Positions 9,685 through 45,062 of a DNA stretch of 64,000 nt are shown piece after piece. The stretch spans positions 1 to 64,000 of the forward strand of contig JABAQZ010000004.1 in NCBI GenBank assembly GCA_019187405.1. The letters are read 5' to 3'. Source of the stretch: Ignavibacteria bacterium (GTDB lineage Bacteria > Bacteroidota > Ignavibacteria > Tepidaquicellales > Tepidaquicellaceae). Below the pieces are notes generated by a model. The model ran no database searches. It was not told the origin of the DNA and saw only the letters and a program-made list of their open reading frames with translations. The translations under genes and the position numbers were made by a program. The first letter of the stretch is position 1, and the number at the start of each line of letters is the position of its first letter.

Positions 9685-9689
9685 TATGC

Positions 9690-9916: not shown

Positions 9917-9941
9917 CTGTTTTTCTATTATTTTTAAATAG

Positions 9942-9957
9942 TTAACCATTTGGTTAA
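9942..9957. promoter_or_regulatory. Palindromic operator candidate for the TetR-family regulator
   Basis: TTAACCATTTGGTTAA is a perfect 7-2-7 inverted repeat ending 19 bp before the ATG of the regulator gene. The position and symmetry suit an autoregulatory TetR operator controlling the whole efflux operon. A looser partial copy (GTTTAGTTAA) follows at about 9961-9970. Confidence 0.6.
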
Positions 9958-11616: not shown

Positions 11617-12531
11617 ATGTCAGCGATAGAAATAAATAATCTCAGCAAAAACTACGGTGAAATTTCCGCTGTCAGAAATTTTTCGCTTAACATAAAATCA
11701 AATACAATGTTCGGGCTTGTAGGACCAGACGGCGCGGGGAAAACAACACTCATCAGAATTCTTGCGGGTTTGTTGGACCCTGATTACGGAACGGTTTTGA
11801 TTTCCGGCAGAGACATTAAAAAGCATCCGCACATTATCAAAGAAAAAGCAGGTTACCTTTCGCAGAGATTCAGCCTTTATACGGATCTTACGGTTGACGA
11901 AAATATTGAATTTATCTCCGTCATACACGGTGTAAAAAAATTTCATAAAAGAAGGGATGAGCTGCTTGAGTTTACAAGATTAATTAAATTCAGAAAGTTT
12001 CTTGCCGGACAGCTCTCGGGGGGAATGAAGCAAAAGCTGTCGCTTGCTTGTGCTTTGATATTTAAACCTGAATTACTGCTGATGGATGAGCCGACTACTG
12101 GTGTAGATCCGGTTTCAAGACGTGAATTTTGGATGATATTATCTGAACTAATGAAAGAAAAACTGACAATAATTGTTTCAACTCCTTACATGGATGAAGC
12201 AGAAAGATTTAACGAAATCGTCATGATGAACAGCGGAACAATCATTGCCAAAGGCGCTCCTGATGAAATCAAATCATTAATGAATGAAATGATAATAGAA
12301 ATCGTATGCTCTCCTGTAAGAAATGCATATAAACTTCTCAGAGAAAACTTGGAAAATGAAATACAGCTGTTTGGAGACAGGCTTCACATAGAGGTAAGAA
12401 ATAATGAAACTCTGGATGCGAGAATTAAAAAATTGCTTGAAGAGAATTCGATTGCTGTATCCGATTTCAGAAAAATTACTCCGTCGCTGGAAAATGCTTT
12501 CATTCATCTGATAAGAGATAAAATCGAGTGA
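11617..12531 (+). CDS. ABC transporter ATPase 1 of YbhF-like exporter, H-loop His missing
   Basis: A 304-aa nucleotide-binding subunit. Walker A is GPDGAGKTT (about 35-43), Q-loop Gln is in LSQRFSLY, the signature is LSGGMKQ and Walker B is LLLMDEPTTGVDP. The H-loop reads STPYMDEAE, so the usual switch histidine is replaced by proline, whereas the second ATPase retains TTHYLDEAE. This suggests an asymmetric pair in which one ATP site is degenerate. In E. coli YbhF both ATPase halves are fused in one chain; here they are two genes. About 90 residues follow the core domain, as in this exporter class. Confidence 0.92.
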   Translation: MSAIEINNLSKNYGEISAVRNFSLNIKSNTMFGLVGPDGAGKTTLIRILAGLLDPDYGTVLISGRDIKKHPHIIKEKAGYLSQRFSLYTDLTVDENIEFISVIHGVKKFHKRRDELLEFTRLIKFRKFLAGQLSGGMKQKLSLACALIFKPELLLMDEPTTGVDPVSRREFWMILSELMKEKLTIIVSTPYMDEAERFNEIVMMNSGTIIAKGAPDEIKSLMNEMIIEIVCSPVRNAYKLLRENLENEIQLFGDRLHIEVRNNETLDARIKKLLEENSIAVSDFRKITPSLENAFIHLIRDKIE

Positions 12532-28500: not shown

Positions 28501-28713
28501 AAGCTTGTAATTGACTGGAGAAAGCGACAACAAACAAGAGCAAATGTAAGGAAAGCAATCGAAGAATCATTAGATAACAATCTGCCAAAGCCACCGGCTT
28601 ATGATGAAACAATATTTAATCAAAAGTGTGATTTGGTATATGAGCATATCTATGAAAATTATTGGGGCGATGGTAAGAGTGTGTATCATGATTTTCAATT
28701 TTTCAAAACATAA
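25552..28713 (+). CDS. hsdR: Type I restriction-modification system, restriction (motor) subunit
   Basis: A 1053-aa HsdR. The N-terminal nuclease of the PD-(D/E)xK type shows RADIIGFVNGIPLMFIELKG (about 145-165) with the Asp and E-x-K catalytic residues. The SF2 translocase follows: Walker A QGSGKS (about 300), DESH box (about 400), motif III FTGTPL, and motif VI QTIARANR (about 680). The C-terminal region is helical and should dock on the methyltransferase. All core motifs are intact, so the system is probably functional. It is separated from hsdM and hsdS by the passenger genes. Confidence 0.96.
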   Translation: MQNYYTEEALIEQPAIEIFKQLGYEHQNCYYETFGDNSSLGRETSSDVILISKLKPALQKLNPNIPTEGIDSAIEKIKKDRSILNPVTANKEIYKLLKDGINVSFKNNKDEEIEDVVRVIDFQNPESNDFFIASQFWITGDLYKRRADIIGFVNGIPLMFIELKGIHKKVEDAFHGNLQDYRDTIPQLFLYNAFIILSNGSESVIGTITSDFGHFNEWKRISSETEKGVVSLDTIIKGVCDKSRLLDLLENFILFQNTGGTLIKVVSKNHQYLGVNNAIEKFKKVKDNEGKLGVFWHTQGSGKSFSMIFFSQKILRKFDGNYTFVIVTDRRELDKQIYKNFVNCGAVTESEVHAESRAHLKELLKENHRNIFTLIHKFGTSAGEDIEVLSDRKDIIVITDESHRSQYDTLALNMRAALPNASFIAFTGTPLMTGEEKTKDTFGDYISIYDFNQSIEDKATVPLYYENRIPELQLEEKELFNDKIQEIIENAELSEDEELKLEKEFSKEYHLIVRDDRLEKIAKDIVEHFVNRGFKGKGMVICIDKPTAVRMYDKVKKIWKEKIEEVKEKYKASQAIYSIDVSELAEKIKYMEETDMAVIVSQEQNEISKFKKLGLDIETHRRRMVNEDMEEKFKNPDEPFRLVFVCAMWMTGFDAPSVSTIYLDKPMKNHTLMQTIARANRVFKEKSSGLIIDYIGIFRNLKKALAIYGSGVRTEAEGPVRSKEELIDELRKKLQELTYFCLQKEIDIGKILEADELHVIQLIDDSVDKLLINDETKKNFLSAVNSINLIYKAILPDKSANEFHKKIRLINSIASKIRVLEGTPDISGIMNQIGELLDDSVKAEAYQIKESNQVDLSKIDVDKLKKIFEKGKKNTEAEKLKNALRNKVHQMIVLNKSRTDFAEKLEELIIEYNSGSINVETFYKELIKFTKELKQEDERAIKEQLTEEELAIYDLLKKPKLNEKETAKVKLAAKELLKSLKAGKLVIDWRKRQQTRANVRKAIEESLDNNLPKPPAYDETIFNQKCDLVYEHIYENYWGDGKSVYHDFQFFKT

Positions 28714-28754
28714 GCATCGCTATTACGAGTAACATAATGTGCTGAATTTAACTT

Positions 28755-30095
28755 TTAACTTTTAAAATGTTTATTGAATTTTGATTTTGAACCATCACCT
28801 ATCTTATTATTTTTGATAAAATGTTTTAAATTGTCAAATTCATTCAGAAACATTTCGTAATCTACAATTTCATAAATATACATTGCCTTTTGATATTTCA
28901 AAGTACTTTTATGACCTGAATAAGGAATATCTAACAATGAGATATAATTTAAAGCTTGTGTAAAATCTTCATTAAAGAATGAATTCATAAAGTTCACATA
29001 CGCTTTAGAGTCCTCTACCTGTTTATGATCCAGTTTACTAATGAATCTTGAACCAAATCTTTCAATTCTTATGGCATCGCCAATAGCAAAGCATGCGCCT
29101 AAATACAAATGGAAAATATGAATCGGAATAATATCATTTCTTGGAGAGGTCATTAGGTTATTTTCAATAAGTGAATCTAAAATTTCGACAACCTCTTTAG
29201 CAATATTCAGTTTATTATCTTTGGTTTTGAACAAGGTAGTAATTAGGCTATAGTGAACACTTTGCTTATGGATCATTGGCAAAATATTCAGATTTTCAAA
29301 AACAATTTTTTTTAAATCCAGATATCTGCTTTCAGTTTTATCCCTAAGTGCAAGGTAGGTGAAATAGTAAATTTTAATGTAATGAGAATTCAATCCGGTA
29401 TTGGCAGTTATTGATTCGGCAATCATTTCCAAACCCGGTGAAATTAAATCCAGAACTTTTGTGGCAGGATTTCTTCCGGGATCAAGATTCCTGTCGCGTT
29501 CGTTAACTTCAGCATTTATATAACTCGCAAATAAAACCATAAGAAAATAAGACAACTGATAAGAATCACAACTAAACTGCAGATTCTCGATTTTAAAATT
29601 TCTATAAAACTGATGATGGTAATGTAATTTCAAATGATAAATCTTAGACATAAAATGAAGATAATCATCAATCTCTAAATTGTTTGCATTCAAATAATCC
29701 AGATCCGGTTCCTTGTCAAATGAATTATGTTTAGTAAGGAAAATCTTAAGTAATTCCCTGTCAAACAATGCATCCAGAAGATACTCATTCTTTTTATATT
29801 CATCTGCATTAAATCTCAGAGTTGCAATAAACTCTTCGGCAAGCTTGTTCAGATCAAAGATCAGATTCTTCATGATGCCATAATTATATTCCTTATCCGG
29901 AAACAACTTCATCCATACTGTTTCCTTTTCAAGAATTGGATCATTTTTTCCGGGTAAGTTATTTTTTATCACAAGAAATAATTTTACTACATTCTCTTTT
30001 TTATTAAAGAAAGGCGATCTGACAAAGTCCTCGAACTTTATCAGTTCCTGTTTTGAAAATGTGCGGATGATCTCGACTAATGAGCTTTTGAGCAT
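28755..30095 (-). CDS. Uncharacterised helical protein, 'SPFFNK' family, copy 1
   Basis: A 446-aa protein of unknown function. It is all-helical by appearance, with no signal peptide or membrane segment. The N-terminal 110 residues (a helix, FEDFVRSPFFNKKENVVKL, LFPDKEYNYGIMKN) match the N-terminus of the protein encoded at 40386-41843, which has FEKFVASPFFNKGRNYLPL and LYPGRKFNKQVMWN. The rest is more divergent but shares the alternating helix pattern of tetratricopeptide-like solenoids. It converges with hsdR. The family appears to occur in Bacteroidota, but I know of no assigned role. Confidence 0.75.
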   Translation of the reverse strand: MLKSSLVEIIRTFSKQELIKFEDFVRSPFFNKKENVVKLFLVIKNNLPGKNDPILEKETVWMKLFPDKEYNYGIMKNLIFDLNKLAEEFIATLRFNADEYKKNEYLLDALFDRELLKIFLTKHNSFDKEPDLDYLNANNLEIDDYLHFMSKIYHLKLHYHHQFYRNFKIENLQFSCDSYQLSYFLMVLFASYINAEVNERDRNLDPGRNPATKVLDLISPGLEMIAESITANTGLNSHYIKIYYFTYLALRDKTESRYLDLKKIVFENLNILPMIHKQSVHYSLITTLFKTKDNKLNIAKEVVEILDSLIENNLMTSPRNDIIPIHIFHLYLGACFAIGDAIRIERFGSRFISKLDHKQVEDSKAYVNFMNSFFNEDFTQALNYISLLDIPYSGHKSTLKYQKAMYIYEIVDYEMFLNEFDNLKHFIKNNKIGDGSKSKFNKHFKS

Positions 30096-30204: not shown

Positions 30205-30859
30205 TCAGATTCCGCCCCATAGTTTGTTCGCGGGCTTGAAAAATTTCATGTAAGCCCAGACGGTATATGAAACAGCAGTTAACTGAAACAATCCGCCGAC
30301 CGGCTCCCGGTTTTCTCTGATAAAAATATAAAAGGTGAAAAGATTATAAATATGATTATTCTTTCACCAGTACAAAACAATTCAGTACGATATTTTCAGT
30401 ATATGAATAAACTGATTTTTTGAATAATAAATATGTAACGGCAGACATAAGAGGTATGCTGACGAGACGAATGATATTAAAGAATCTGTAAACAAAAGAA
30501 CTGTATTCATTGTAATAATCCGGCAGATCAAATGACGGTTCAGTGTCAATTATGCCTCTTTTTGGTCCAAGCAGCTGGTTCTTTATTGTTATTATTGTAA
30601 CAAGTGTAACAGTGATGAAAATAAACTTTACAGGGTTAAAATATTTTTTCCTTTTTCCCGAAATGTAATCTGCAGTCAGCTGTCCCGGTCTTTTGAACAA
30701 TTCAATAATCAGATAAAACAATCCTTTTTCCAGTGTGATATAATTATCCAGCGTATCTTTTATAATATTTTTCAGAACCGGTCTCGATGTGACTGCTTTC
30801 TGTCCGCAATTACTGCAATAGTTTCCTTCAAATTCTGTTTTGCAGTTTTTACAATACAT
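30205..30859 (-). pseudogene. DUF3667 membrane protein, disrupted by one frameshift
   Basis: The first 167 codons encode a zinc-ribbon start (Cys3, Cys6, Cys15, Cys18) and the family signature TADYISGKRKKYFNPVKFIF with membrane segments, then stop at VLVKE. Directly beyond, a frame shifted by one base continues without a stop for about 50 codons and ends at 30205-30207. That part (FYIFIRENREPVGGLFQLT, then AYMKFFK) looks like the missing final membrane helix and tail. One indel near 30355 therefore splits an otherwise normal-sized gene. It may be a real mutation or a sequencing error in the T/A-rich stretch. Confidence 0.75.
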
Positions 30860-31034
30860 AAAATTATATTTCCCGATTAATTTACCCTATACACGAGACG
30901 AGCTTTCGATAAAAGAAAATTAACTGCTAACCATCTAAGAAGATTTAAAAACATTTATTTCGATTCCTGCACAAAATAAGACTTTTTGACAAAAAATGTA
31001 AGTGCTTAGCCGTGAAAGTCGTGAAAAAGTTTCT

Positions 31035-31065
31035 TTGGAGAATGATATAGCTAAACATATTTTTG
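31035..31065 (+). promoter_or_regulatory. Consensus Bacteroidota promoter
   Basis: TTG at 31035-31037, a 20-nt spacer, then TATTTTTG at 31058-31065 fit the TTG-N19/20-TAnnTTTG consensus of the primary sigma factor in this phylum. The start codon of the next gene lies 37 nt downstream, preceded by AAAGGAG. Confidence 0.65.
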
Positions 31066-31102
31066 TATCAGTTAATAAAAAACATTAAACAAAGGAGAAA
31101 AA

Positions 31103-31513
31103 ATGTTTAAAGCAAAATTAATAATACCGATAGTAATGTTTACATTCCTGATGAATGTTTGTAATTCATATTCGCAGGAAAACATAAAACCAAATTCATC
31201 TGAATTTAATATAGCCCAGAGTGTAAAAGATTTAAATCAGGATTCAAAAAAATTTAATCTTCACAACAGCGCAGCAACAAGTTATGACAATGTAACAAAT
31301 ATCGAATTTGAACTTGGAGAAGAAGCGAATATAATTCTGACTGTTTACAATTCCAAAGGTGAAATAATTTCAACACTTGTAAATGATTTAATGGATGCCG
31401 GAGATTACAATGTTCATTTTAAATCTTCAGAGAAAATTGTTTCAGGTGAACTGACATATAAACTGGAAGTTAAAAGTATTTCAGGAATAAAGAATGTATT
31501 TGCAGTGAAGTAA
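31103..31513 (+). CDS. Mini protein consisting of a signal peptide and a lone T9SS-type C-terminal domain
   Basis: A 136-aa secreted protein. Residues 1-25 form a signal peptide (cleavage near NSYSQ). The following 35 residues are low-complexity. From about 62 to the end the chain aligns in pattern with T9SS sorting domains: TNIEFELGEEANIILTVYNS, GEIISTLVNDLMDAGDYNV, and an ending FAVK in place of the usual MLIK. There is no cargo domain and the YPNPFNP motif is absent. It has a good ribosome-binding site and its own promoter, so it is probably expressed. It may be a small surface or decoy protein, or a relic that lost its cargo. Confidence 0.65.
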   Translation: MFKAKLIIPIVMFTFLMNVCNSYSQENIKPNSSEFNIAQSVKDLNQDSKKFNLHNSAATSYDNVTNIEFELGEEANIILTVYNSKGEIISTLVNDLMDAGDYNVHFKSSEKIVSGELTYKLEVKSISGIKNVFAVK

Positions 31514-31586
31514 CGAAAGACGTTGAAAAGTTAATAAGAATATATGACTCGTAATTTGTAACTCGTAATTTTTAATTGTTCTTTAA

Positions 31587-31659
31587 AAAGCAGCCCGTGA
31601 ATTGTCCGCGAAACATATTCACTTAATTGCATCACCGGTATGCAGGGTTGTTTTTTAAT
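31587..31659 (+). ncRNA. Structured 3'-element, copy 1 (three-way-junction candidate)
   Basis: Copy 1 of a ~70-bp conserved element found again at 34677-34748. An outer stem pairs AAAAAGCAGCCC (31586-31597) with GGGTTGTTTTTT (31647-31658) with two G-U pairs. Inside are GTGAA/TTCAC (31598-31602 with 31618-31622) and GCAT/ATGC (31630-31633 with 31641-31644) hairpins. The element ends in a T-run, so it may act as a terminator or processed 3' end. It begins 78 nt after the stop of the preceding T9SS-tail gene. It could instead be a mobile palindromic repeat. Confidence 0.5.
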
Positions 31660-31721
31660 TTTTAGATATTTGATTTTGGATTTTTGAATTATAATCTCTT
31701 TTTACTTTTAACTAAATAAAT

Positions 31722-34601
31722 ATGAAAACAAAAATTAAAATTACCAATTATTTTCTAATGCTTTTTGTAATGACATCGGTATTTTTTGCATTTAATAATC
31801 CAAGCAATAAAAATTCAATTTCTTCAAATAATTATTTTAAGCTTTTGAATAATGTGACAGAAAATGATTATGTGCCGAATACGGTCATTTTTAAATTAAA
31901 GGAAAGAAATAGAATCAAAGCAAGTCTTAATTCGATTGATAATGTCTTGATCAACGAAGCTTTTTATGATTTAAATACAGTGCGTGTGAATAAAGTTTTT
32001 GCTAATGCAGTGAAACCTCTTTTGAAATATTCCGCTGACGGTGAATATTTGAGCGATCTGTCTTTGATTTATATAATTGAATACAATACACCAACGTCAA
32101 TTGAAGAAGCAGTGAATGTAATTTACAATACAGGAGAAGTAGAATACGCGCAGCCGAAGTATACTCAGAAATTAATGTTTACTCCGAATGATCCTCTCTT
32201 AGGTTCTCAGTATTTTATAAATAAAATTCAAGCGCCTGCCGGCTGGGATATTCAGCAAGGTGACACAAATGTTGTAATAGGAATAGTAGACACAGGGACG
32301 GATTGGGATCACCCGGATCTTCAGGCAAATATAAAATATAATTATGCTGATCCTATAAATGGAGCAGACGATGACAATGACGGATATATTGATAATTATA
32401 GAGGATGGGATTTAGGCGACAGAGATAATGATCCGATGGTATCGCCAAGTGATGACCACGGCTCTATGGTTTCCGGATGTGCTGCCGCTGTTACCAATAA
32501 CGGAACAGGTGTATCAAGTCCGGGATTTAAATGCAGGTTTCTGCCGGTAAAAATATCGAATTCTTCAGGACTTGCAGCAGCGTATGAAGGGATTGTATAT
32601 GCAGCCGAGCACGGATGCACGATTATTAATTGTTCATGGGGCGGAGGAGTTGCAGGTGAATTTGAGCAGGATGTAATAAATTATGTTTCAATTAATAAGA
32701 ATGCATTGGTTGTTTGCGCAGCCGGTAATTATAATTCCGGTGATACATTTTATCCTGCAGATTTAAAATATGTAATGTCAGTTGCATCGACTAATTCAGT
32801 AGATACCAGATCTTCATTTTCAAATTTCGGAAATGGCATAGACGTCTGTGCTCCGGGTGAATCTATAAGAAGTACAATTTATAATAACACATATACATTT
32901 GATGATGGCACATCTTATTCCTCACCTATTTGCGCAGGAGTTTGTGCGATCGTTAAGTCACAATTTCCTTCCTATACAGGTTTACAGGCGGGAGAAAAGG
33001 TTAGAGTAACCTGTGATAATATAGATTTACAAAATCCTTCATTTATCGGAAAACTCGGGAAAGGCAGAATAAATATGATGAGAGCATTGACAATAAGCTC
33101 GCCTTCTGTAAGACTAAATTCTTTTACTGCTGCTGATGGAAACAATAATTTGATTCAGCCCAATGATACAATTACTATTATCGGAGCATTTAAAAATTAT
33201 CTTGATGTAACTACAAATGCACTTGTATCAATAACAACAACTTCCACTTCTGTTACTTTATTAAACGGAAGTTCAACGCTTGGTGTAATTCCAACACTCG
33301 GAACAGTTACCAACAGCAGTTCTCCATTCAGAGTAATTGTAAACAGTAATGCTCCTTTAAATTCAAAAGTTGTTTTTAAATTAAATTATACTGACGGTTC
33401 ATATTCGGACTTCGAATATTTTTTAATAACAGTTAATCCGGGTTATCTCAGCATTAATGGAAACAACATAACAACAACTCTTAACGGTAAAGGTAATATA
33501 GGATACAATGATTATTGGTTAAATACACAGGGTGAAGGATTTAAATATAAAAACGGTTTCAGTCTATTAGGTGAAGGCGGCTTAGTTTGCGCAACTTCAG
33601 GTACAAAAGTTTCCGATTGTATAAGAGGTAATAATCCATTTGTTCAAAACTCAGACTTTACAAATGTCAGTCCTTTTCAAATTACTAAGCCGGGAACAAT
33701 TTCGGCTCAGGACGGAAATACAATATTTAATGATGACGCCGCAGGTTCAAACAAAATCGGAATAGAAATTAATCTTAACAGCTATCAATTTACATCTGCC
33801 GCGGATTCTGATTATGTTATTCTAAAATATAGAATTAAAAATACTACTGCAGCTGACATTACTAATTTCTTTGCCGGACTTTATAATGACTGGCAAATTG
33901 GCTCACTCGGTAACTATAATAAGTCAGACTGGGATGCGGCAAATCAAATGGGTTACGTTTGGAAATCCGGCGGCAATCCGGCTACTTTTACCGGAGTGTC
34001 ATTACTTTCAGCGAATAATGTCAGCTACTGGGCTATTGATGATGATAACAGTGTGGCGGGAAATCCTTTCGGAACATGGGACGGATTTTCAGATGCAGAA
34101 AAATATCGATCATTGTCATCCGGTATCGGACGAGGTCAGGCAGGAGGCGCGAACGGCAATTTTGTTTCCAACATAACAGGAAGCGGACCTTACTCCATTC
34201 CAGCCGGAGGTTATATTACAATTACATTTGCATTAATTGCAGGGGACAATTTAGCGGACCTTCAGGCAAATTGTATTGCCGCAAAAAATAAATATAATTC
34301 AGTCATTGGCATTACTAATCACAATTTACAAGTTCCTGACAGATATTCATTGTCTCAAAATTATCCCAATCCATTTAACCCGGTTACTAATTTGGAATTT
34401 GGAATATCGAAATCGGGATTTGTTTCTTTGAAAATTTATGATGTGCTGGGTAAAGAAGTTGCTGATTTAGTAAATGAAAATTTAAAACCCGGTACTTATA
34501 AATATAACTTTGATGCAACAAATTTAACAAGCGGAATTTATTTTTACAAAATTAAAGCAGGTGATTTTATTCAAACGAGATCGATGATGCTGATTAAGTA
34601 A
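31722..34601 (+). CDS. Secreted subtilisin-like serine protease with T9SS tail
   Basis: A 959-aa S8-family protease. After a signal peptide (about 1-25), residues 50-155 look like an inhibitor-type propeptide. The catalytic triad is intact: Asp190 in GIVDTGTDWDHPDL, His246 in DDHGSMVSG and Ser398 in GTSYSSP (GTSMASP in most relatives), with the oxyanion Asn336 in AAGN. A 400-residue beta-rich region follows. The last ~85 residues form a T9SS domain (SLSQNYPNPFNP, ending SMMLIK), so the enzyme should be secreted and surface-attached or released. The downstream structured element lies 79 nt after its stop. Confidence 0.95.
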   Translation: MKTKIKITNYFLMLFVMTSVFFAFNNPSNKNSISSNNYFKLLNNVTENDYVPNTVIFKLKERNRIKASLNSIDNVLINEAFYDLNTVRVNKVFANAVKPLLKYSADGEYLSDLSLIYIIEYNTPTSIEEAVNVIYNTGEVEYAQPKYTQKLMFTPNDPLLGSQYFINKIQAPAGWDIQQGDTNVVIGIVDTGTDWDHPDLQANIKYNYADPINGADDDNDGYIDNYRGWDLGDRDNDPMVSPSDDHGSMVSGCAAAVTNNGTGVSSPGFKCRFLPVKISNSSGLAAAYEGIVYAAEHGCTIINCSWGGGVAGEFEQDVINYVSINKNALVVCAAGNYNSGDTFYPADLKYVMSVASTNSVDTRSSFSNFGNGIDVCAPGESIRSTIYNNTYTFDDGTSYSSPICAGVCAIVKSQFPSYTGLQAGEKVRVTCDNIDLQNPSFIGKLGKGRINMMRALTISSPSVRLNSFTAADGNNNLIQPNDTITIIGAFKNYLDVTTNALVSITTTSTSVTLLNGSSTLGVIPTLGTVTNSSSPFRVIVNSNAPLNSKVVFKLNYTDGSYSDFEYFLITVNPGYLSINGNNITTTLNGKGNIGYNDYWLNTQGEGFKYKNGFSLLGEGGLVCATSGTKVSDCIRGNNPFVQNSDFTNVSPFQITKPGTISAQDGNTIFNDDAAGSNKIGIEINLNSYQFTSAADSDYVILKYRIKNTTAADITNFFAGLYNDWQIGSLGNYNKSDWDAANQMGYVWKSGGNPATFTGVSLLSANNVSYWAIDDDNSVAGNPFGTWDGFSDAEKYRSLSSGIGRGQAGGANGNFVSNITGSGPYSIPAGGYITITFALIAGDNLADLQANCIAAKNKYNSVIGITNHNLQVPDRYSLSQNYPNPFNPVTNLEFGISKSGFVSLKIYDVLGKEVADLVNENLKPGTYKYNFDATNLTSGIYFYKIKAGDFIQTRSMMLIK

Positions 34602-34676
34602 CGTGAGAAACTATATGTTTGTCTTCAAACGTCGTAACTCTTAACTCGTAATTCGTAATTTTAAATTGTTTCTTAA

Positions 34677-34748
34677 AAACAGCCAGTGAATTGTCCGCGA
34701 AACATATTCACTTAATAGCATCACCGGTATGCAGGGTTGTTTTTTAGA
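34677..34748 (+). ncRNA. Structured 3'-element, copy 2
   Basis: Second copy of the element described at 31587-31659, nearly identical from GTGAATTGTCCGCG onward. The outer stem is shorter: AAAAACAGCC pairs with GGTTGTTTTT, with one A-G mismatch beyond. The GTGAA/TTCAC and GCAT/ATGC hairpins are unchanged, and the T-run is kept. It starts 79 nt after the protease stop, the same spacing as copy 1, which argues for a 3'-UTR role rather than a 5' leader of the next gene (about 210 nt away). Confidence 0.5.
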
Positions 34749-34778
34749 TTTATAAGGCAGAACTATTTCCATATTATT

Positions 34779-34957: not shown

Positions 34958-37084
34958 ATGAAAACAATTTTTATACATTCGTCTTTCGCAATTTTAATTT
35001 TAGTCAGCTCCTTTCTGAATGCATTATCACAGGAGAAAAAGATATATAAAGGTGAAGTTCCAGCTAATTTAGTTAAAGAAGAATTAATTAACAAAAAAGC
35101 GGAACGACAAAATTTCAAGACCCGGGAAATGACATTACTTGAAAGTGAAATGAAAACAGCCAAAGAAAAAGGCGACAAGAATGAAGTTATAAATCTGCAG
35201 AAAGAATATGATGCAATTTCCGGATCGGTAACGAAACCCCCCAAGAAAATAGACATGAAAAGAATAAAACCGGAAGAAGCCGGGTTTGATAATATTTATA
35301 CAAATACTATTTTCAGTACAAATGATCATTTCAGCATCGTTGATATGGCGACTGCCACCGATCAGAGGGGAAGTAATACTGGAAGGATTTGGACTGTTTG
35401 GATTGGAGTAGAAGATGAGTTTGTATACGGTGCAAGTTCATTAGGTCTGGCTTATTCAGATGACAATGGATTAACATGGACAGTGCAGTATTTATATACT
35501 TTTGGCGAATATTGGAATGTGTCTGAAATCGACATTGAGTACCTCGAAGATAATTCTGATAATAATTTTGTATGGATAGTTTGTAATCCAAATGTATTAT
35601 TAATTGTGAACTTAAATAACGGTGCATCGAATGCATATGAAATGCTCTGGCCTCTGAACTACTATGGGGGTTTTTTAAGTCCGAGAATCGTATCAGATAA
35701 CGCTAGATATCCAGACATCCCTTTCATTTACATTGTCATAAAGCAATGGGTACAACCTGATCCTAATATTAATGAATATCACGTTGTCGAGGCTACCGCA
35801 AAGTGTGTAAGTCCGCTTACATCATCGCCGTCTATTTCATACGGGGCATGGTATATAACTTATCCTGATGTTTATATCTATGGTATTCCGGATTATACAA
35901 CAGACATTGCATATTTCAGGAATGGATCGAATGACTCCGTTGTCATACTTATTAATAATACATCGAACCAAATAGATATATATACTCATTCTATTTTTTC
36001 TTTTAATGCTTACACTGCACCGAATTATATAGGAAATTTAAATCCTAATAGTTACATGAATCCCAAGCAAAGAGCTTATCTTGCAACAAACGGCGGATAC
36101 AATAAAATAATGATTGTCTACAAAAAATTTTATGATGTTTATGACTGGGACGTTGCATATTACAGATCAACTAACGGTACTGCAGGCTGGCTTCAGGGTT
36201 ATGTAGATTTCAGTGCGGCAAATGTCTTTGGCGATGCACGTATCATAGGGGAAAGAAACGATGGAGGGAAATTTCATGTAGCTTACATAAATGAACAGAA
36301 TTCTGAAATTTCTTATGCGAGTTCAGATAATTATCTCTGGAATCCGAGAATTTTCCCTTACAGCAATCTAAGATCATATGGCTCATCTGATCCATACAAA
36401 GAAAATATTGGAAATCCTGCTCCAGGCTACTACCAGACTTTTTTCAATTCAGGTTGCATGGCAGTCTGGCTTGATTCTACCGGAAAAAATATTTGGAGCT
36501 CATCGGGCTGCTCAGGTCCTTTCTCACAACCAACAAAAGAACTTTTTCTATTCGGCGCTATTCAGGGATTGTATGATCCGGTTGCAGATGAAATGCTCGA
36601 TGATACAGTTACAGTTTATTTGAGAAATTCAATTTCACCTTTTGCAAAAATAGATTCATCGAGAAAAGAATTGTACGGACCGGGAACAGGTCAGTATTTT
36701 TCTTTTAACAATGCTCAGAATAATATTCCATATTATGTTGAAGTAAAACACAGGAATGCACTCGAAACGTGGAGCGCTGATCCTGTTACATTTGTAAATG
36801 AGAATTCATCTATTGCTTTTTCAGTTGATGCAATTTACGCTTTTGGGAATAATGAAATACAGGTTGATAGTTCGCCTTATAATGTGTTTGCGTTCTTCAG
36901 CGGCGATGTAAATCAGGATGGAGTAATTGATGCTACTGACGCAGGAGCAATTGATAATGATGCATTTAATTTTATGACAGGTTATGTTAATACGGATTTA
37001 ACAGGCGATGATGTTGTGGATGCGACAGATGCGGCGATAGCGGACAATAATGCGTTTAATTTTGTAGGTAAGGTGACGCCGTGA
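34958..37084 (+). CDS. Large secreted protein with dockerin-like C-terminal tail, paralogue A
   Basis: A 708-aa secreted protein (signal peptide about 1-25). A short charged helix (35-100) is followed by a long beta-rich body that is probably a beta-propeller or exo-alpha-sialidase-like fold; the exact family is not recognised. The last ~190 residues match those of two other proteins in the window: AIQGLYDPV..., YVEVKHRNALETWS, then a dockerin-like pair of calcium loops DVNQDGVIDATDAG and DLTGDDVVDATDAA, ending FVGKVTP. No YPNPFNP tail is present. It is a paralogue of the protein encoded at 37416-39533 (SVTKP and DQR/EQR regions align). Confidence 0.85.
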   Translation: MKTIFIHSSFAILILVSSFLNALSQEKKIYKGEVPANLVKEELINKKAERQNFKTREMTLLESEMKTAKEKGDKNEVINLQKEYDAISGSVTKPPKKIDMKRIKPEEAGFDNIYTNTIFSTNDHFSIVDMATATDQRGSNTGRIWTVWIGVEDEFVYGASSLGLAYSDDNGLTWTVQYLYTFGEYWNVSEIDIEYLEDNSDNNFVWIVCNPNVLLIVNLNNGASNAYEMLWPLNYYGGFLSPRIVSDNARYPDIPFIYIVIKQWVQPDPNINEYHVVEATAKCVSPLTSSPSISYGAWYITYPDVYIYGIPDYTTDIAYFRNGSNDSVVILINNTSNQIDIYTHSIFSFNAYTAPNYIGNLNPNSYMNPKQRAYLATNGGYNKIMIVYKKFYDVYDWDVAYYRSTNGTAGWLQGYVDFSAANVFGDARIIGERNDGGKFHVAYINEQNSEISYASSDNYLWNPRIFPYSNLRSYGSSDPYKENIGNPAPGYYQTFFNSGCMAVWLDSTGKNIWSSSGCSGPFSQPTKELFLFGAIQGLYDPVADEMLDDTVTVYLRNSISPFAKIDSSRKELYGPGTGQYFSFNNAQNNIPYYVEVKHRNALETWSADPVTFVNENSSIAFSVDAIYAFGNNEIQVDSSPYNVFAFFSGDVNQDGVIDATDAGAIDNDAFNFMTGYVNTDLTGDDVVDATDAAIADNNAFNFVGKVTP

Positions 37085-37188
37085 AATTGGTTGAGTGAGT
37101 TGATTTCTCAATCTGAGTCCCCGCCGAAAGGTGCATTGTTGATTTTAAAAAATTTCAAAATGCGGGAGACTCCGATTGAACGAAAAAC

Positions 37189-37269: not shown

Positions 37270-37332
37270 ATTGGATTGGGAATTTCGGATTTGAAAATTT
37301 TTAATTTTTGATATTTGATTTATGATTTTAGA

Positions 37333-37412
37333 TTTTCAACTTTTAACTTTCAACTTTTAACTTTCAATTTTTAACTTTTAACTTTTAACTTTTAACTTTT
37401 AACTTTTAATAA
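37333..37412. repeat. AACTTTT heptamer array ahead of a start codon
   Basis: About ten copies of AACTTTT or close variants (AACTTTC) run up to 4 bp before the ATG of the next gene. The array occupies the place where the leader and translation-initiation region should be. Slippage in copy number would alter the leader. Similar short AACTTTTAAC stretches precede or follow genes near 28748, 31700 and 34927. Confidence 0.8.
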
Positions 37413-37415
37413 CTT

Positions 37416-39533
37416 ATGATGGGAAAGATATTTCACTTAACAGTAATTTTATTTCTTACATGCAATTTAAATTTATTCTCACAGGAATTAACTGTTTCAG
37501 ATAAAGATGAGCCGGCAATCACATTGTCAAATGAGAAAATTAAACTTCCTCCGACACAGGAAAACATTCAGTCGAAGGAGGAACTTATGATCATTGGGGA
37601 AATGAATCGTCTTAAATATGATCAGACTGCTTTGAACGGAGAAAAGATCCTTCAGTTACAGAAAAAACTTGAAGCGTTAAATCACAGGTCAGTTACTAAA
37701 CCTTATGAAACATCTTCCCGATTATTCTCAGATGATGCAATACGGAATCATTTACAGAATCAGACTGACGCAATCACAATGTCAGGGATTTATTCATCTC
37801 CCAGCGCATATATAAAAAGCATTGCAACACAGACGGAACAAAGGCAGGGGGGAAGCGGAACTATCTGGGTTTCGGTAGCTGTCGGAGGCGGAGACGGCGG
37901 AGTTGGCGCGACACCGGATACTTTACTTTTATTTAAATCAGTTAACAACGGAATATCATTCAGTTTATATTCAAAGCTGCCTTTAAATGTCGGGAATAAA
38001 ATAAATTATGATGATATGGATATGGAAATATTGGAATTCAATTCTTACATAAAATATATTCACCTCGTCTTCGGATACATTACAGACGGTTTCACAGGCT
38101 CTTACCGTACAGGACTGGTGTCGTATGACATTATAAGTAACACTGTAGGAAACATTGCCAGCCTTGATTTCCCGGGCAATAACTTCCCGGGCAATAAATA
38201 TACAAGGCCAAGGATTGTCTCGGATAATGCATATTATCAGTCCGGCTCATATGTGACAATTGCAGTAACTCAGGATTCCCTGGATAACGGTAATTATTAT
38301 CACATGACAAAGTTTTGCCGGATTTATAATCCGTATACTATAAACCCTTCTGTTACTTACATGCCAAAAAGTATTTACACTCCGTTTGCAGGATTCAGTA
38401 ATGTAGGTCAAGCTGATATCGCTTATTACAATACCGGATTCAGTGCATCAGGAGACAGTATAATTTTCGTTGTAAGCGGAACACCGGGTTTTTTTAATCT
38501 TGTGCTGACTTATAAAGCTTATGGTAATTCCTCAGAATATCCCGTACAATCCACTATTTTATTTCAGAATTTTAATAATAAAGAATACGCGCGGATCGCT
38601 TCTAACGGAGGAGGAAATCAGAAAAAAATGATGATTGTATATATAGAAGAGAATATCGGTGTCAGCATATTCAAATCTGTTGATGCTAATAACTGGAGTA
38701 ATTCTTTCATACTAGGTGGCGGAGGGATACTCTTTCAATTTAAGTATCCTGATATTATTGGCAGACGAAACTTTGACGGGAAGTTTTATATTACTAATAA
38801 ATCTGAAACACCAATGACAGATGTAATCACATCTTATGTATTCGATAATTTGAACATAACTTCGAGTACGATCAATCACAATAATTCAGGTTACAAATCT
38901 TTTTCGGCTCCAAAACCTTCTCTCAGATTTGTCAATAATGACAGCTGTCTTACAATTTGGCCGGCCTATTCATCGGTTTATTCTTCCTGCGGCTGCAGTG
39001 CAGTTAATCTGGCATTTCGCGCTTACATTCAGGGATTATATGACCCGGTTACAAACTCGCCAAAATACGATTATTCCGCCTTGTATCTGAGACAAACAAT
39101 TCCGCCATATGCAAAAGTGGATTCTGCATTCGGCTACAATGCAACTATTTTTTCATTTCACAATGCAGGTCCGGGTTCGTATTATATTTCAATGAATCAC
39201 AGAAATTCAATAGAAACATGGTATAAGCAGCCGCAAAGTTTAGTAACCCCCGGTATAAATTCCCTGTCACTTTATCAGAATGCATCGGATGCTTACGGAA
39301 GTAATCAGGTGCAGGTAGACAATAGCCCGGTCACATTTGCAATTTACAGCGGCGATGTAAATCAGGATGGAGTTGTTGATGCGACCGACGCCGGAGCAAT
39401 CGATAATGATGCATCAAATTTTGTAACCGGTTATGTTAATACTGATATTACAGGAGATGATTTGGTAGATGCGACGGATGCGGCGATAGCGGATAATAAT
39501 GCGTTTAATTTTGTGGCGAAGATTATCCCGTGA
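37416..39533 (+). CDS. Large secreted protein with dockerin-like C-terminal tail, paralogue B
   Basis: A 705-aa secreted protein (signal peptide about 1-22). It shares its layout with the protein encoded at 34958-37084: charged helix with LQLQKKLEALNHRSVTKP, a beta-rich body starting IATQTEQRQGGSGTIWV, then the common tail AYIQGLYDPV, YISMNHRNSIETW, and calcium loops DVNQDGVVDATDAG and DITGDDLVDATDAA. It ends FVAKIIP. The 168 bp encoding its dockerin part (39335-39502) are identical to 43791-43958 in an unrelated gene, which points to a very recent conversion. Body function is unknown. Confidence 0.85.
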   Translation: MMGKIFHLTVILFLTCNLNLFSQELTVSDKDEPAITLSNEKIKLPPTQENIQSKEELMIIGEMNRLKYDQTALNGEKILQLQKKLEALNHRSVTKPYETSSRLFSDDAIRNHLQNQTDAITMSGIYSSPSAYIKSIATQTEQRQGGSGTIWVSVAVGGGDGGVGATPDTLLLFKSVNNGISFSLYSKLPLNVGNKINYDDMDMEILEFNSYIKYIHLVFGYITDGFTGSYRTGLVSYDIISNTVGNIASLDFPGNNFPGNKYTRPRIVSDNAYYQSGSYVTIAVTQDSLDNGNYYHMTKFCRIYNPYTINPSVTYMPKSIYTPFAGFSNVGQADIAYYNTGFSASGDSIIFVVSGTPGFFNLVLTYKAYGNSSEYPVQSTILFQNFNNKEYARIASNGGGNQKKMMIVYIEENIGVSIFKSVDANNWSNSFILGGGGILFQFKYPDIIGRRNFDGKFYITNKSETPMTDVITSYVFDNLNITSSTINHNNSGYKSFSAPKPSLRFVNNDSCLTIWPAYSSVYSSCGCSAVNLAFRAYIQGLYDPVTNSPKYDYSALYLRQTIPPYAKVDSAFGYNATIFSFHNAGPGSYYISMNHRNSIETWYKQPQSLVTPGINSLSLYQNASDAYGSNQVQVDNSPVTFAIYSGDVNQDGVVDATDAGAIDNDASNFVTGYVNTDITGDDLVDATDAAIADNNAFNFVAKIIP

Positions 39534-39877
39534 TTCAATTATCAATTATTAATTATTAATTATTAATTGTAGAGACGCAATATTTTGCGTCTCTACAAAC
39601 ATTTTGTGTCCTCGTCCCCCCTGTGTCCTCGCAATTGAATGAATTCGTGATTTTATATAAAAACAAAATGCGGGATAGGCAGCGGGAACGAAGAGTAGTC
39701 TATCGTTTCGATCGTTTCACAATTAGAGATTCAGAAATATGAATTAATTATGAATGGGATTGATTATATTTATTTTAGTTTCATTTCCGTTTTTAGTGTT
39801 CACGGAGTTATAAAATTAAAAGATAATTATTAAATCAGTCTTTGAATTATATCTATTAAAATAAATCATTAATTAGT
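39534..39877. other. Gene-free spacer between dockerin protein B and HicBA
   Basis: Contains ATTATTAATT simple sequence (39541-39566) and the TAGAGACGC palindrome described separately. The rest (39600-39840) shows no gene, terminator or RNA structure I can support. Confidence 0.4.
39568..39597. repeat. Perfect 13-bp palindrome TGTAGAGACGCAA / TTGCGTCTCTACA
   Basis: A 13-bp perfect inverted repeat with a 4-nt TATT loop. The TAGAGACGC core is similar to a REP-type palindrome widely dispersed in cyanobacteria and some Bacteroidota. It lies after a dockerin-protein gene. It could serve as a transcription stop in either direction, but no long T-run follows. Confidence 0.7.
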
Positions 39878-40333: not shown

Positions 40334-40435
40334 ATGAGTTTCATCAAGAAAATCAGAATCAAAAACTTCAAGAATCTTGTTATACCTACAGCTCATCAAC
40401 TTTCTCCAGCAGCCATTCCTTGTGTCTTTTCCTAA
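40334..40435 (+). pseudogene. N-terminal remnant of an AAA/RecF-type ATPase gene
   Basis: Nine bases after hicA, an ATG opens MSFIKKIRIKNFKNL, the characteristic start of OLD/AAA15/SMC-like ATPases. After about 15 codons the reading frame runs into the 3' end of the minus-strand gene at 40386 and meets a stop. The Walker A region is lost. A deletion joining hicA to the unknown paralogue gene would explain it. The match is short, so this is tentative. Confidence 0.4.
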
Positions 40436-41843
40436 GAGCTTTATCCATTTCGATGTCTTCATGTAATTCATTCAGTTTGATTGAATCAGGATTTTCTTTG
40501 AAGATTAAAAGTCTGTTTAAGTAATTAAAAAATTTCAGGTAAGCTTCTTTTGTATTGCTTTCAATTGCTGTATTGTTTCCGATAAAGTGTTTTGATGAAT
40601 CTATATAATAAAAAAGCAATTCTGATTTGCTGAGTTCGTAGTAAGTTTTTGCAGTAAGTATTCTCACATGAAGTTTATCTCTCAAATCAATAAACTCGAC
40701 TTTATTTACAGATTGCAATGAATTTTCATATTCTTTCCTTGCATAATAAATCAACCCCCACGCTAATGAACTCATGGTTTTCTGTTGTTCCTTTATTAAT
40801 TTCGATGTGTATTCCTTAACAAAATTTTCAGTCCATTCTATTTCACCCAATGAAAGCGCATTCCTTATTATCTGATAATAAAGTGATTTTTGAATTCTAT
40901 TGCCTCCATATGTATCTAGTTCTTTAGCTAGTCTGAATTTATTTATTTCAAAAAGCTGTTTGAGAAACTTTGAATTTCCCAATCTCATCTTATGCGCGCA
41001 ATAATTTGCAAGTGATATGATTGTATTTTTTTGCTCGGTTGTGTCAAAGGAATCACTATTTTCATCAAAGAAATTTTTCATTTCGAAAAAGTAGTTTTCG
41101 TCATTCTCATCCAAACAACACATTATTTTATTGTAATAAAAATTCATCACTGGCGCAAGTTTGTGATTATTCTCTTTTGCTGTGTCAATTAACTTCTTTA
41201 AGTCAAGACTTTTTACAAACTCGATGGGACTTTCAATTTCACTTTCTACATCATACATATTCTTCATAATTTGCAAATCGGAAACCGAAATCGATAGCTC
41301 TGCTAATAAACTTATTATTAAGTATTCAGTGCATTTAATCATTGCATCTAAACTTTTATCCTGTCTTCCCACTAATGATGACCAATATTCTACTTTGTTA
41401 CCTTCGATAATCCATTTATTATGAAAGTGCTCTTTCCCCAATCCAACTGTATTATTGTATTTATCTATCCTTTCAATTTCTTTTGACACCTGTTTATACA
41501 GATGCCTCTTTGACAGTTCATTAAATAAAATAATAAATCTTTCAACCCTGTTATTCTTTAACCCTGTCTGAAGAAGAAATTCAGTTGCAAGTTTTTCAAA
41601 CTCAGATACCTGATTCCACATTACCTGTTTGTTAAACTTCCTCCCGGGATATAATTTTTTATAAATATATTCATATGTCAATATTTCATTTTCATATTCA
41701 GGATGAAATTTCCGAAGTTCAGCGAGTAACGGCAGATAATTTCTTCCTTTATTAAAAAAAGGAGAAGCGACAAACTTTTCGAATAGCTTAAGATCATCTT
41801 TTGTGAATGTCTTTAAGGTATAGATTAACTTTGTATCCTTCAT
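40386..41843 (-). CDS. Uncharacterised helical protein, 'SPFFNK' family, copy 2
   Basis: A 485-aa protein of unknown function and paralogue of the one at 28755-30095. The aligned N-terminus has FTKDDLKLFEKFVASPFFNK, then LYPGRKFNKQVMWNQVSEFEKLATEFLLQ. The remainder is Leu/Glu/Lys-rich alternating helices. No signal peptide, membrane segment or catalytic motif stands out. Both copies lie on the minus strand and each borders a mobile or defence module (hsdR and hicBA). Their role may be regulatory scaffolding, but this cannot be established from the sequence. Confidence 0.75.
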   Translation of the reverse strand: MKDTKLIYTLKTFTKDDLKLFEKFVASPFFNKGRNYLPLLAELRKFHPEYENEILTYEYIYKKLYPGRKFNKQVMWNQVSEFEKLATEFLLQTGLKNNRVERFIILFNELSKRHLYKQVSKEIERIDKYNNTVGLGKEHFHNKWIIEGNKVEYWSSLVGRQDKSLDAMIKCTEYLIISLLAELSISVSDLQIMKNMYDVESEIESPIEFVKSLDLKKLIDTAKENNHKLAPVMNFYYNKIMCCLDENDENYFFEMKNFFDENSDSFDTTEQKNTIISLANYCAHKMRLGNSKFLKQLFEINKFRLAKELDTYGGNRIQKSLYYQIIRNALSLGEIEWTENFVKEYTSKLIKEQQKTMSSLAWGLIYYARKEYENSLQSVNKVEFIDLRDKLHVRILTAKTYYELSKSELLFYYIDSSKHFIGNNTAIESNTKEAYLKFFNYLNRLLIFKENPDSIKLNELHEDIEMDKALRKRHKEWLLEKVDEL

Positions 41844-42126: not shown

Positions 42127-43989
42127 ATGAAAACAAAAATATTTTTACTTTCGATATTGCTCTTATCTTTTTTCTCAACTAATTCTATTTCACAAGTAAG
42201 TCAGGAATGGGTTTCGTCATATCATTTTACTTCCGATGATGGAAAAGCTTTAACAATAGACGACAACGGAAATGTCTATGTTACGGGAACGAGCGGCAAT
42301 GATTATGCAACAATAAAGTATAATTCTTCAGGAGTTCAGCAATGGGTTGCAAAATATGACGGACCCGCAAACGGCGGTGACGGAGCAACTGCAATAGCTG
42401 TAGATGCTTCGGGAAATGTATATGTCACCGGCGGAAGTAATGGAATTTCGTCGGGCTCGGACTTTGCAACCGTTAAATATAATTCATCAGGAGTTCAGCA
42501 ATGGGTTGCAAGATTATCAGGAACAGGAAACAATGTTGACCTTGCGAATGCTATTGCCGTTGACAGTTCAGGGAATGTTTATGTTACGGGCTTTACTTTT
42601 GGAAGCGGATCATTTCAGAATTATACGACAGTTAAGTATAATTCCTCCGGCAATTTGCAGTGGGTAAAGTATTATAACGGAACAGGGAATAATGCAGACT
42701 TTGCATCTGCTCTTGCTTTGGATGATTTGGGAAATGTATATGTAACAGGTTACAGCAGAGGAAGCGGTTCGAGTGATGATGATTTTGCCACAATTAAATA
42801 TGACTCCGCAGGAAATGAAGAATGGGTAAGAATTTATCAGGGACCCGGAGATGAATTCGATCAGGCACAGTCAATTGCAGTTGACGGATTGAGTAATGTC
42901 TATGTAACGGGGCGTAGTTTTGGAGCGGGAACAAATTATGATTATGCTACAATTAAATATAACTCATTGGGAGATTCATTATGGGTTCAGAGATATAATG
43001 GAGTTGACAATAATCACGATTTTTCAAAAACAGTAAAAGTCGACGCATCGGGTAATGTGTTTGTGCTTGGTCAGAGTTTTAACAATCTGACAAATTATGA
43101 TTTCGCAACGGTAAAATACAATTCAGCCGGTGTTTTTCAATGGGATAAAAAATATAACGGACCGGGGAACAGTGTTGAAAATGCAAATGCAATGGCGCTC
43201 GATGATTCGGGTAATGTGTATATAACAGGTTCGAGCTCTTTGAGCGGACAAAATTATAATTATGCAACTGTAAAATACAGCAACAGCGGAATAGAAAGGT
43301 GGAGTCAGATATATAACGGAACAGCAAGCGGTAGTGATGAGCCGTTTTCAATAGCAGTAGATGCATCCGGAAATGTTTATGTCACAGGAAGCAGCGCAGG
43401 TCTTGGGCAAATGAAAAATTACGTGACGATAAAATATTCACAAAGTCCTCGTGCAACTTTAACGGCATTCATTGAAGGTTTTTATAATTCCAGTTCCAAT
43501 AGTTTGAATAGTGATATAGTTAAAATATATTTGAGAAATACAAGTTCGCCTTTTTCAATTGTCGATACTTCCGTGTCCACACTTGATTCAGTCGGAACCG
43601 GAACATTTTATTTTTCGAATATCAGTAACGGAACAAATTATTATATTATTATAAAACACAGAAATTCAATCGAGACATGGAGCAATTCGGGAAATTCTTT
43701 TGCGTCCGATACATTGATATATGATTTTACAACTGCTGCAAATAAAGCATTTGGAAATAATATGAAGCAGGTTGACACATCACCTGTTAGATTTGCAATT
43801 TACAGCGGCGATGTAAATCAGGATGGAGTTGTTGATGCGACCGACGCCGGAGCAATCGATAATGATGCATCAAATTTTGTAACCGGTTATGTTAATACTG
43901 ATATTACAGGAGATGATTTGGTAGATGCGACGGATGCGGCGATAGCGGATAATAATGCTTCTAACTTCGTAAGTGTGATTAGACCGTAA
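42127..43989 (+). CDS. Secreted SBBP-repeat beta-propeller protein with dockerin-like tail
   Basis: A 620-aa secreted protein (signal peptide about 1-22). Eight repeats of about 50 residues carry the motif DxxGNVYVTG followed by YATIKYNSSG, typical of SBBP beta-propeller repeats. From about residue 440 the chain changes to the module seen in the two proteins upstream: AFIEGFYNSSSN, YIIIKHRNSIETWS, then DVNQDGVVDATDAG and DITGDDLVDATDAA, ending FVSVIRP. The body is unrelated to those proteins, so the tail is an exchangeable module. The dockerin part is identical at DNA level to that of 37416-39533 over 168 bp. Confidence 0.88.
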   Translation: MKTKIFLLSILLLSFFSTNSISQVSQEWVSSYHFTSDDGKALTIDDNGNVYVTGTSGNDYATIKYNSSGVQQWVAKYDGPANGGDGATAIAVDASGNVYVTGGSNGISSGSDFATVKYNSSGVQQWVARLSGTGNNVDLANAIAVDSSGNVYVTGFTFGSGSFQNYTTVKYNSSGNLQWVKYYNGTGNNADFASALALDDLGNVYVTGYSRGSGSSDDDFATIKYDSAGNEEWVRIYQGPGDEFDQAQSIAVDGLSNVYVTGRSFGAGTNYDYATIKYNSLGDSLWVQRYNGVDNNHDFSKTVKVDASGNVFVLGQSFNNLTNYDFATVKYNSAGVFQWDKKYNGPGNSVENANAMALDDSGNVYITGSSSLSGQNYNYATVKYSNSGIERWSQIYNGTASGSDEPFSIAVDASGNVYVTGSSAGLGQMKNYVTIKYSQSPRATLTAFIEGFYNSSSNSLNSDIVKIYLRNTSSPFSIVDTSVSTLDSVGTGTFYFSNISNGTNYYIIIKHRNSIETWSNSGNSFASDTLIYDFTTAANKAFGNNMKQVDTSPVRFAIYSGDVNQDGVVDATDAGAIDNDASNFVTGYVNTDITGDDLVDATDAAIADNNASNFVSVIRP

Positions 43990-44425
43990 TTCAATTACGA
44001 ATTACAGATTAATCCATTACAAGTTTAATTCAGCAGTTGTAATTCCCGCGAAAACAGGAATTCAGAAAATTTAAATAAAGATGAAACTTTTTGATTCTGA
44101 CTATATCAGTGTTGGAATTAGGAATTACGATGAAAAGTTGAAACAATTTTGAAGAATCAAATTTACAAAAATTAATCTTCGTTTCTTCAATGATAAGTCT
44201 CGAGGTAAATGGTTTCAGGAAGTATTAGATAACTCAAGCGGTAATTTCGGGAGCTTAATTGCATGGGGTCGCATTTTAATAATAATCTCCAGCGAAAAAT
44301 TAATCTCGATATTGTAGCGCTAATACAGAGATTTTGTAATCGTTAAATAATTTCATGATTAAGTATAAGCTAAAAGTAATATAGAGAGAGACTGCAACTC
44401 CCTATGCCAAACCCGGTTCTGCAAT

Positions 44426-44500: not shown

Positions 44501-44830
44501 ATTCATCACTAAATTTACTGCACTTTAAAAAAGCAAAAGTTAATAAAACATATAATAAAAAAATAAATGAACTTACCGAATTGGAATTTAAATAAAAAAT
44601 TTAAAAGCAATAAAAATATTCTGAGTTAGAATTTTCATTTGAACTTTTAATATACTTTAATGAATAGAAGACAATGTATTTGAAGAATGAAATTCTAATT
44701 TATAGAATTTATTTAATTTCACTTTTATATGTCATCTTTGAATAATACTCAGTTACAATCCGCAATGGCAAAATAATCCATAATTCTAAACATTCGAAAT
44801 ATCAATAATGTAATTGATACGCCGCTTCAT

Positions 44831-44978
44831 ATTGAACATTGAACATTGAACATTGAACATTGAACATTGAACATTGAACATTGAACATTGAACATTGAAC
44901 ATTGAACATTGCACATTGCACATTGCACATTGCACATTGCACATTGCACATTGCACATTGCACATTGCACATTGAACA
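44831..44978. repeat. 9-bp tandem array: ATTGAACAT then ATTGCACAT units
   Basis: About seven ATTGAACAT-type units (44831-44910) pass directly into about eight ATTGCACAT units, with a final ATTGAACAT at the right end. The single A/C change at the sixth position separates the two blocks, as expected from unit-wise amplification. Short frames in several registers are artefacts of the period-9 repeat. It lies just upstream of the glycan operon. The same unit family occurs near 9695-9916 and 19447-19470. Confidence 0.9.
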
Positions 44979-45062
44979 TAACCGGACTCCAATGTAAAGC
45001 AATCAAAGCCGGAAAAATGCTATGACTAACAAATTGACTCTTCATTTTGTAATTTATACGCA

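Follow-up and report, generated by a model that had tools for sequence, protein, structure and literature searches.

A structured RNA element, a candidate cis-acting leader, accompanies one clade of a linked protein family in exported-protein operons of Ignavibacteria

We describe a family of RNA elements, termed type A, which lie in operons for exported proteins in Ignavibacteria and are linked to one clade of a protein family that we call X. Comparative sequence evidence indicates that the type A element is a real structured RNA. We lean towards regarding it as an undescribed cis-acting RNA element, and no earlier description of it was found in the open-access literature by title or abstract. 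On balance, it would act as a leader that controls either the stability of each exported cistron or its translation, and the likeliest trans factor would be the cognate X. The stretch of DNA analysed here (64,000 nucleotides; the window) carries two copies, which a first-pass annotation had read as 3′-UTR elements and not as leaders.

The two window copies (Table 1) are 96% identical over 71 nt by BLAST, other matches in the genome being weak, and a repeat search of the window returned them as a 93-nt direct repeat (31570-31662 and 34659-34751, 88% ungapped match). The duplicated structured element of about 70 bp noted in the annotation is thus confirmed. Both copies also fold in RNAfold as had been claimed, with two inner hairpins that close the outer helix and a U-rich 3′ side (MFE z-scores of −3.9 and −2.7). 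The terminal T-run reported earlier is indeed present, yet it is base-paired to the A-run of the outer helix; it characterises the intercistronic subtype and is missing in many other members. Both copies are intercistronic, with the next start codon about 60 nt downstream of copy 1 (at 31722) and about 207 nt downstream of copy 2 (at 34958). Their distances from the preceding stop codons, previously given as 78 and 79 nt, come to about 73-75 nt when counted from the stop ends at 31513 and 34601.

Table 1. Coordinates of the type A copies, their neighbours in the window and the leaders of other X clades
Feature	Position	Strand	Details
Cognate protein X gene, divergent from operon	28701..30095	-	X profile match 456.8 bits, 464/493 positions; helical-repeat-like
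DUF3667 zinc-ribbon gene, between window X and operon	30356-30859		
Operon promoter (predicted)	31030..31070, approximate	+	TTTCTTTG ... TATTTTTG; operon-head sequence comparison; upstream of small gene
Small exported protein gene, 136 aa, first of operon	31103..31513	+	weak FlgD_ig/T9SS-like tail
Conserved 5′ flank, common to both copies	31570..31582	+	TTTTAATTGTTCT; from 93-nt repeat
Type A element (putative leader), copy 1	31583..31661	+	CM R1 92.7 bits; fold -25.1 kcal/mol, z -3.9
Copy 1, P1 5′ arm	31583..31596	+	TTAAAAAGCAGCCC; RNAfold, P1 covariation
Copy 1, P2 hairpin	31597..31622	+	GTGAATTGT...ACA.ATTCAC; variable sequence and length family-wide
Copy 1, P3 hairpin	31628..31644	+	TGCATCACCGGTATGCA
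Copy 1, P1 3′ arm	31645..31658	+	GGGTTGTTTTTTAA; RNAfold
Exported subtilisin-like protein, T9SS C-terminal tail	31722..34601	+	3′ of copy 1
Type A element (putative leader), copy 2	34672..34750	+	CM R1 85.2 bits; fold -21.2 kcal/mol
Exported dockerin-tailed protein	34958..37084	+	3′ of copy 2
Type B leaders	L126, L141-L144, L146, L147, L149-L154, L156, L157, L159		about 150-380 nt upstream of X
Type C leader, beside third X pair	L041:13540-13830, L036:11002-11380		CGGGAGRGAA...TTCTCTCCCG

Across the family, the type A element is a three-way junction in which the outer helix P1 meets two hairpins, P2 of variable sequence and the nearly invariant P3 (GCAU-CACCGGU-AUGC). The P3 loop reads [C][A/G]CCGGU, and the CAT..CCGGTATG stretch of P3 is almost unchanged across 42 members. 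P1 reaches 17-18 bp, and the 3′ arm reads GGTTATTATT or GGGCTGTT. Compensated sequence changes in P1 and P2 span about 12-18 bp, P2 also varies in length, and in a sister-family copy (L140) P1 has changed once more with compensation (AATAATAAG/CTTATTATT). In a sequence-only alignment (A1) of some 20 further copies in genomes of the same family, drawn from a DNA search of 59 relatives, two-sided changes were seen at 13 of 23 pairs, and none of 500 shuffles was as good. An enlarged alignment (A3), which was fitted to the covariance model and hence biased towards structure, had 94.0% of cells paired and two-sided changes at 15 of 23 pairs, in 161 cells; none of 500 shuffles matched it, and slid controls were only 36-46% paired. 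The two alignments agree in their verdict on structure, and the annotation's proposal of a structured RNA, to be judged by a covariance model and compensatory changes, is borne out. G-U pairs are found within the helices, which supports the sense strand as the functional RNA.

The element might instead work as DNA, either as an operator for X or as a recombination or transposition site of the REP, MITE or attC-like kind. At the DNA level P3 comes close to a palindrome, which in L086 is perfect over 16 bp; a locus can have several copies; and the copies are linked to X, all of which would suit such a role. The compensated changes in P1 and P2, the change in P2 length and the G-U pairs on one strand speak against it, as does the arrangement of the copies, which are not dispersed and almost without exception run in the same direction as the next exported gene, and we consider this explanation very improbable. 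The palindromic mobile repeat that the annotation kept as its main alternative is excluded by strict strand and position bias, and a dispersed REP or MITE was ruled out by low copy number (five in the genome, 42 in nine genomes), strand and position. An integron attC site was rejected, as the 3′ arm, which reads GTTATTA, departs from the core GTTRRRY (partner RYYYAAC). An upstream ORF from the invariant ATG in P3 was also considered, but a one-nucleotide variation in P1 puts it in different frames in different subgroups.

A search of 29 genomes of the family with the covariance model R1 recovered 42 strong members, distributed over nine of these genomes (E<=1.4e-5, where E-values come from a short calibration and are rough, and most genomes are MAGs), including five strong copies in the window's genome. 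A second model, R2, run on 294 genomes of the class, returned the same genomes with one additional copy in each of two sister-family genomes and nothing elsewhere in the class sample. The type A family therefore counts 44 members, 42 in one family and two in its sister family, all Ignavibacteria. In a phylum sample of 395 genomes, the window's own genome was the sole one to give a match, under stricter filters that may overlook weak, distant members. A DNA pattern scan of named genomes yielded Ignavibacteria MAGs, two of which are named simply 'Bacteroidetes bacterium'; a pattern match in L178, which bears a deltaproteobacterial title, does not resemble a member and was set aside. Searches with Rfam gave no match at either element copy in the window region (4227 families, E<=10) and, at gathering thresholds, none at the leaders of seven loci that represent types A, B and C. 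In a sister-family genome, two matches to Acido-Lenti-1 RNA above the Rfam gathering score lie near X genes (L139:5945-5989 and 12203-12247, minus strand).

To place the element in its genomic context, we tabulated the neighbours of all 44 copies, with start sites, promoters and start codons as predicted. The upstream neighbour is divergent in 26 copies (L035 among them after correction of an over-extended ORF), and three further copies have a distant same-strand gene upstream, at 313-416 nt. Together these form the 29 TSS-proximal copies; the other 15, both window copies included, are intercistronic. A CTTTG-N15-22-TAnn(n)TTG motif (also given as CTTTG-N20-TAnnTTTG), which we take to be a Bacteroidota-type promoter, lies upstream of 25 of the 29 TSS-proximal copies, of none of the 15 intercistronic ones, and in 2.3% of intergenic 102-nt windows. 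The 5′ end of P1 sits 7-16 nt past the -7 box in most promoter-bearing copies, such that P1 would begin at about the predicted transcription start, if this is some 5-8 nt 3′ of the box. Past the element, the next start codon usually follows within 21-75 nt and opens a protein with a signal-peptide-like N-terminal sequence. By its place between a promoter and a same-strand start codon, the element is a 5′ leader in 29 of the 44 copies, those outside operons, 25 of them with the motif; the window copies are intercistronic.

Among the intercistronic copies, downstream start codons, where identified, are 60-207 nt away. The 5′ flank common to the window copies is possibly a decayed promoter remnant, and a related sequence, GTTCTTT, comes after the promoter in some TSS-proximal copies. 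Two copies are exceptional: one (L036) has no same-strand gene downstream and ends its operon, and in another (L040) the next gene is 688 nt distant. Runs of CTCGTAA, like the heptanucleotide arrays of the window (see below), precede some intercistronic copies.

Seen by themselves, the two window copies could be read as a leader or as a 3′ element. The latter reading, that of the annotation, takes the element as the 3′ end of the upstream gene, be it an intrinsic terminator, a stability element or an sRNA 3′ end. It draws on the window copies and 13 others that follow a same-strand gene, on the U-rich 3′ side and on the copy that ends its operon, and the U-runs and GC-richer stem of the intercistronic copies might serve a terminator. 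The wider family places the element differently, given that 26 of the 44 copies follow a divergent gene, so that no transcript ends there, and that 25 of the 29 non-intercistronic copies stand just 3′ of a promoter and 5′ of an exported-protein start codon. Moreover, the U-run is missing in many members, and an intrinsic terminator scan called none at either window copy. In all, 29 of the 44 copies have no same-strand gene end close upstream. Even the fixed spacing behind coding sequences proved a local coincidence, since, where an intercistronic copy closely follows a gene on its own strand, it begins 19 to 138 nt after the stop of that gene. We therefore regard a 3′-end element as scarcely probable.

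The best rival to the regulated leader is a passive stabiliser, placed at the native 5′ end or at one made by processing, of long and abundant exported-protein messages, with no regulator involved and with X acting only at the promoter or elsewhere. That P1 begins near the predicted transcription start and extends to 17-18 bp is in keeping with this, as is the start of type B leaders (see below) 5-9 nt past the -7 box, and reuse between cistrons suits the protection of processed ends. A passive cap would, however, need neither a near-invariant P3 loop and junction nor a separate architecture for each X clade, which leaves this explanation somewhat unlikely. The ompA 5′ UTR is a 5′-terminal stem stabiliser, and like type A it places a helix at the mRNA 5′ end, or close to it, in a gene for an envelope or exported protein. 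Type A differs from it by the three-way junction, the near-invariant loop, the X-linked, clade-specific types and the recurrence between cistrons.

A metabolite or ion riboswitch is less likely than the passive stabiliser, because the downstream genes encode exported proteins, not metabolism or transport, and because other X clades use unrelated leaders. While a compact three-way junction with conserved loops, a 5′ leader position and strong covariation would all befit a riboswitch, the element is restricted to two families, and a conserved terminator or SD-sequestering platform was not seen; we judge it improbable. Type A resembles the cis-regulatory leaders in Rfam (riboswitches and protein-binding leaders) in being a conserved 5′ leader with covarying helices and a defined class of gene downstream. 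It departs from them in pairing with a paralogous helical-repeat-like protein family, in occurring also between cistrons and in having no Rfam match. BglG-type RAT and ANTAR hairpins are protein-binding antitermination leaders, which likewise combine a leader RNA with a linked regulator gene. In type A, by contrast, no overlapping terminator/antiterminator pair was found, and the partner would be a helical-repeat protein.

Protein X has about 490 residues, and its gene is divergent within 400 nt of the element in 24 of the 29 TSS-proximal copies. Five lack a divergent X, one of which (L082) has a convergent X downstream. The genes divergent from X encode large exported proteins. An X profile search gave 35 matches in the 3.78 Mb of the window's genome. 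X is confined to two sister families, where it is present in 41 of 79 genomes, and was found in none of 35 genomes from the other families of the class; a search of viral contigs gave none. By sequence, only sub-threshold matches were obtained in Pfam, NCBIfam and PDB. The AlphaFold model of X is all-helical (mean pLDDT 89). Foldseek returned nothing at E<=0.001 with this model, its matches having E>0.02, and a second look with VIA-align placed X closest to Rap, NprR and AimR; their Z values among the top seven, 10.9-13.4, are borderline scores where helical repeats are concerned. The C-terminal part of about 350 residues aligned with Rap Phi3T at Z 13.4 (rmsd 5.5, 288 aligned), while for the N-terminal 140 residues the best Z was 5.5, with HTH-like proteins among the weak matches and no reliable fold match. 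The model thus suggests, at a borderline level, an RRNPP/TPR-like helical-repeat protein. X resembles the RRNPP receptors (Rap, NprR, AimR) in having an adjacent gene as candidate target and a cytoplasmic location and, at the borderline level just given, in its C-terminal structural alignment. It differs from them in its identity of 8-12%, borderline Z, lack of a sequence-profile match and of a clear N-terminal HTH match, in its occurrence outside Firmicutes, and in having a structured leader RNA in place of a known peptide gene.

The type of leader goes with the clade of X. A tree built from 53 X proteins groups those associated with type A in a single well-supported clade (27 of 28 rows), and two label changes suffice compared with 17.9 in shuffles. 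A second tree, to which sister-family X and members of another clade were added, gives this clade (clade A) 24 type A rows of 26, both sister-family ones included, and the four leader labels need 5 changes as against 28.3 in shuffles. The association is not circular, because type A was assigned by searching whole genomes for the RNA, without reference to X. The window X at 28701..30095 falls in clade A. In another X clade (L126 and relatives), most leaders are H-type pseudoknots (type B), located at the predicted transcription start of the genes divergent from that clade. Their stems differ in sequence with pairing kept and many compensatory differences (for example GGCTATATGATGCTC/GAGCATCGTATAGCC in stem 1 and ATCCCCCAAA/TTTGGGGGAT in stem 2), as seen in most of 17 regions with a promoter call. 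The link is weaker for type B than for type A, because its loci were picked by X homology and some (L145, L148, L158, L169) have no such pseudoknot. A third X pair stands beside a type C leader (Table 1), and further X-paired leaders (L115, L119) have long inverted repeats as well. The congruence between X clade and leader type could also be plain co-inheritance of a linked cassette.

Building on the fold and its covariation, on the orientation and position of the copies, on the link to one X clade and on the exported-protein operons, we propose a cassette made of a divergent cognate X gene, a promoter, the leader and one or more exported T9SS or dockerin proteins. The leader most likely works at the RNA level. 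P1 would close, protect or gate the mRNA 5′ end, whether native or made by processing between cistrons, and a trans factor, for which the linked X is the most plausible candidate, would recognise the conserved P3 and junction and set the stability or translation of the following cistron. Alternatively, X may act at promoter DNA, with the leader as a separate layer; its candidate operator there is a conserved sequence just upstream of the -33 box, which differs between X clades. This conserved stretch measures about 60-100 nt (..GTGAAACCCGCCAAAAAGTTTCTTTGG..; L033:6446-6693, L038:8639-8862, L036:6406-6621, window 30860-31102).

The work adds an undescribed class of putative cis-regulatory RNA, tied to a large unannotated protein family. 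It offers a functional hypothesis for a family that has no Pfam name, and a promoter-plus-leader signature from which the targets of that family could be predicted. If protein and leader cooperate, they would represent a new, paralogue-specific RNA control of surface and exported proteins in Bacteroidota and a source of ready orthogonal pairs. More tentatively, Ignavibacteriales may hold dozens of such paralogous cassettes per genome, in each of which an RRNPP/TPR-like protein would specifically recognise the leader RNA of the divergent exported-protein gene. In that case, X clades and leader folds (three-way junction, H-type pseudoknot and others) would have diversified together, producing a large natural set of orthogonal protein-RNA pairs.

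In the window, the operon promoter is followed directly by the small gene at 31103, with no leader in between. The gene order of X, small gene, element, subtilisin-like gene, element and large exported gene occurs again in two other genomes (G021 and G022), with one inserted ORF in G021. The window X itself is a 446-aa ORF with one in-frame TAA and a stop before the last ~30 model positions, and so appears to be C-terminally truncated, without the last ~30 residues. A second X paralog (40386-41843) is divergent from an exported beta-propeller/dockerin gene (42127-43989) and has simple GTTTGTAAA-type repeats where the leader would be. Three exported genes share a near-identical dockerin-like C-terminal tail, GDVNQDGV(V/I)DATDAGAIDNDA... 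(36848-37106, 39297-39555 and 43753-44011). The window also contains intergenic heptanucleotide arrays of the ATTGAAC, TTTTAAC and ATGATTA types (9672-9946, 37320-37410 and 44803-44991) and, at 7343-8140, a tandem array of 26 overlapping repeats spaced 21 nt.
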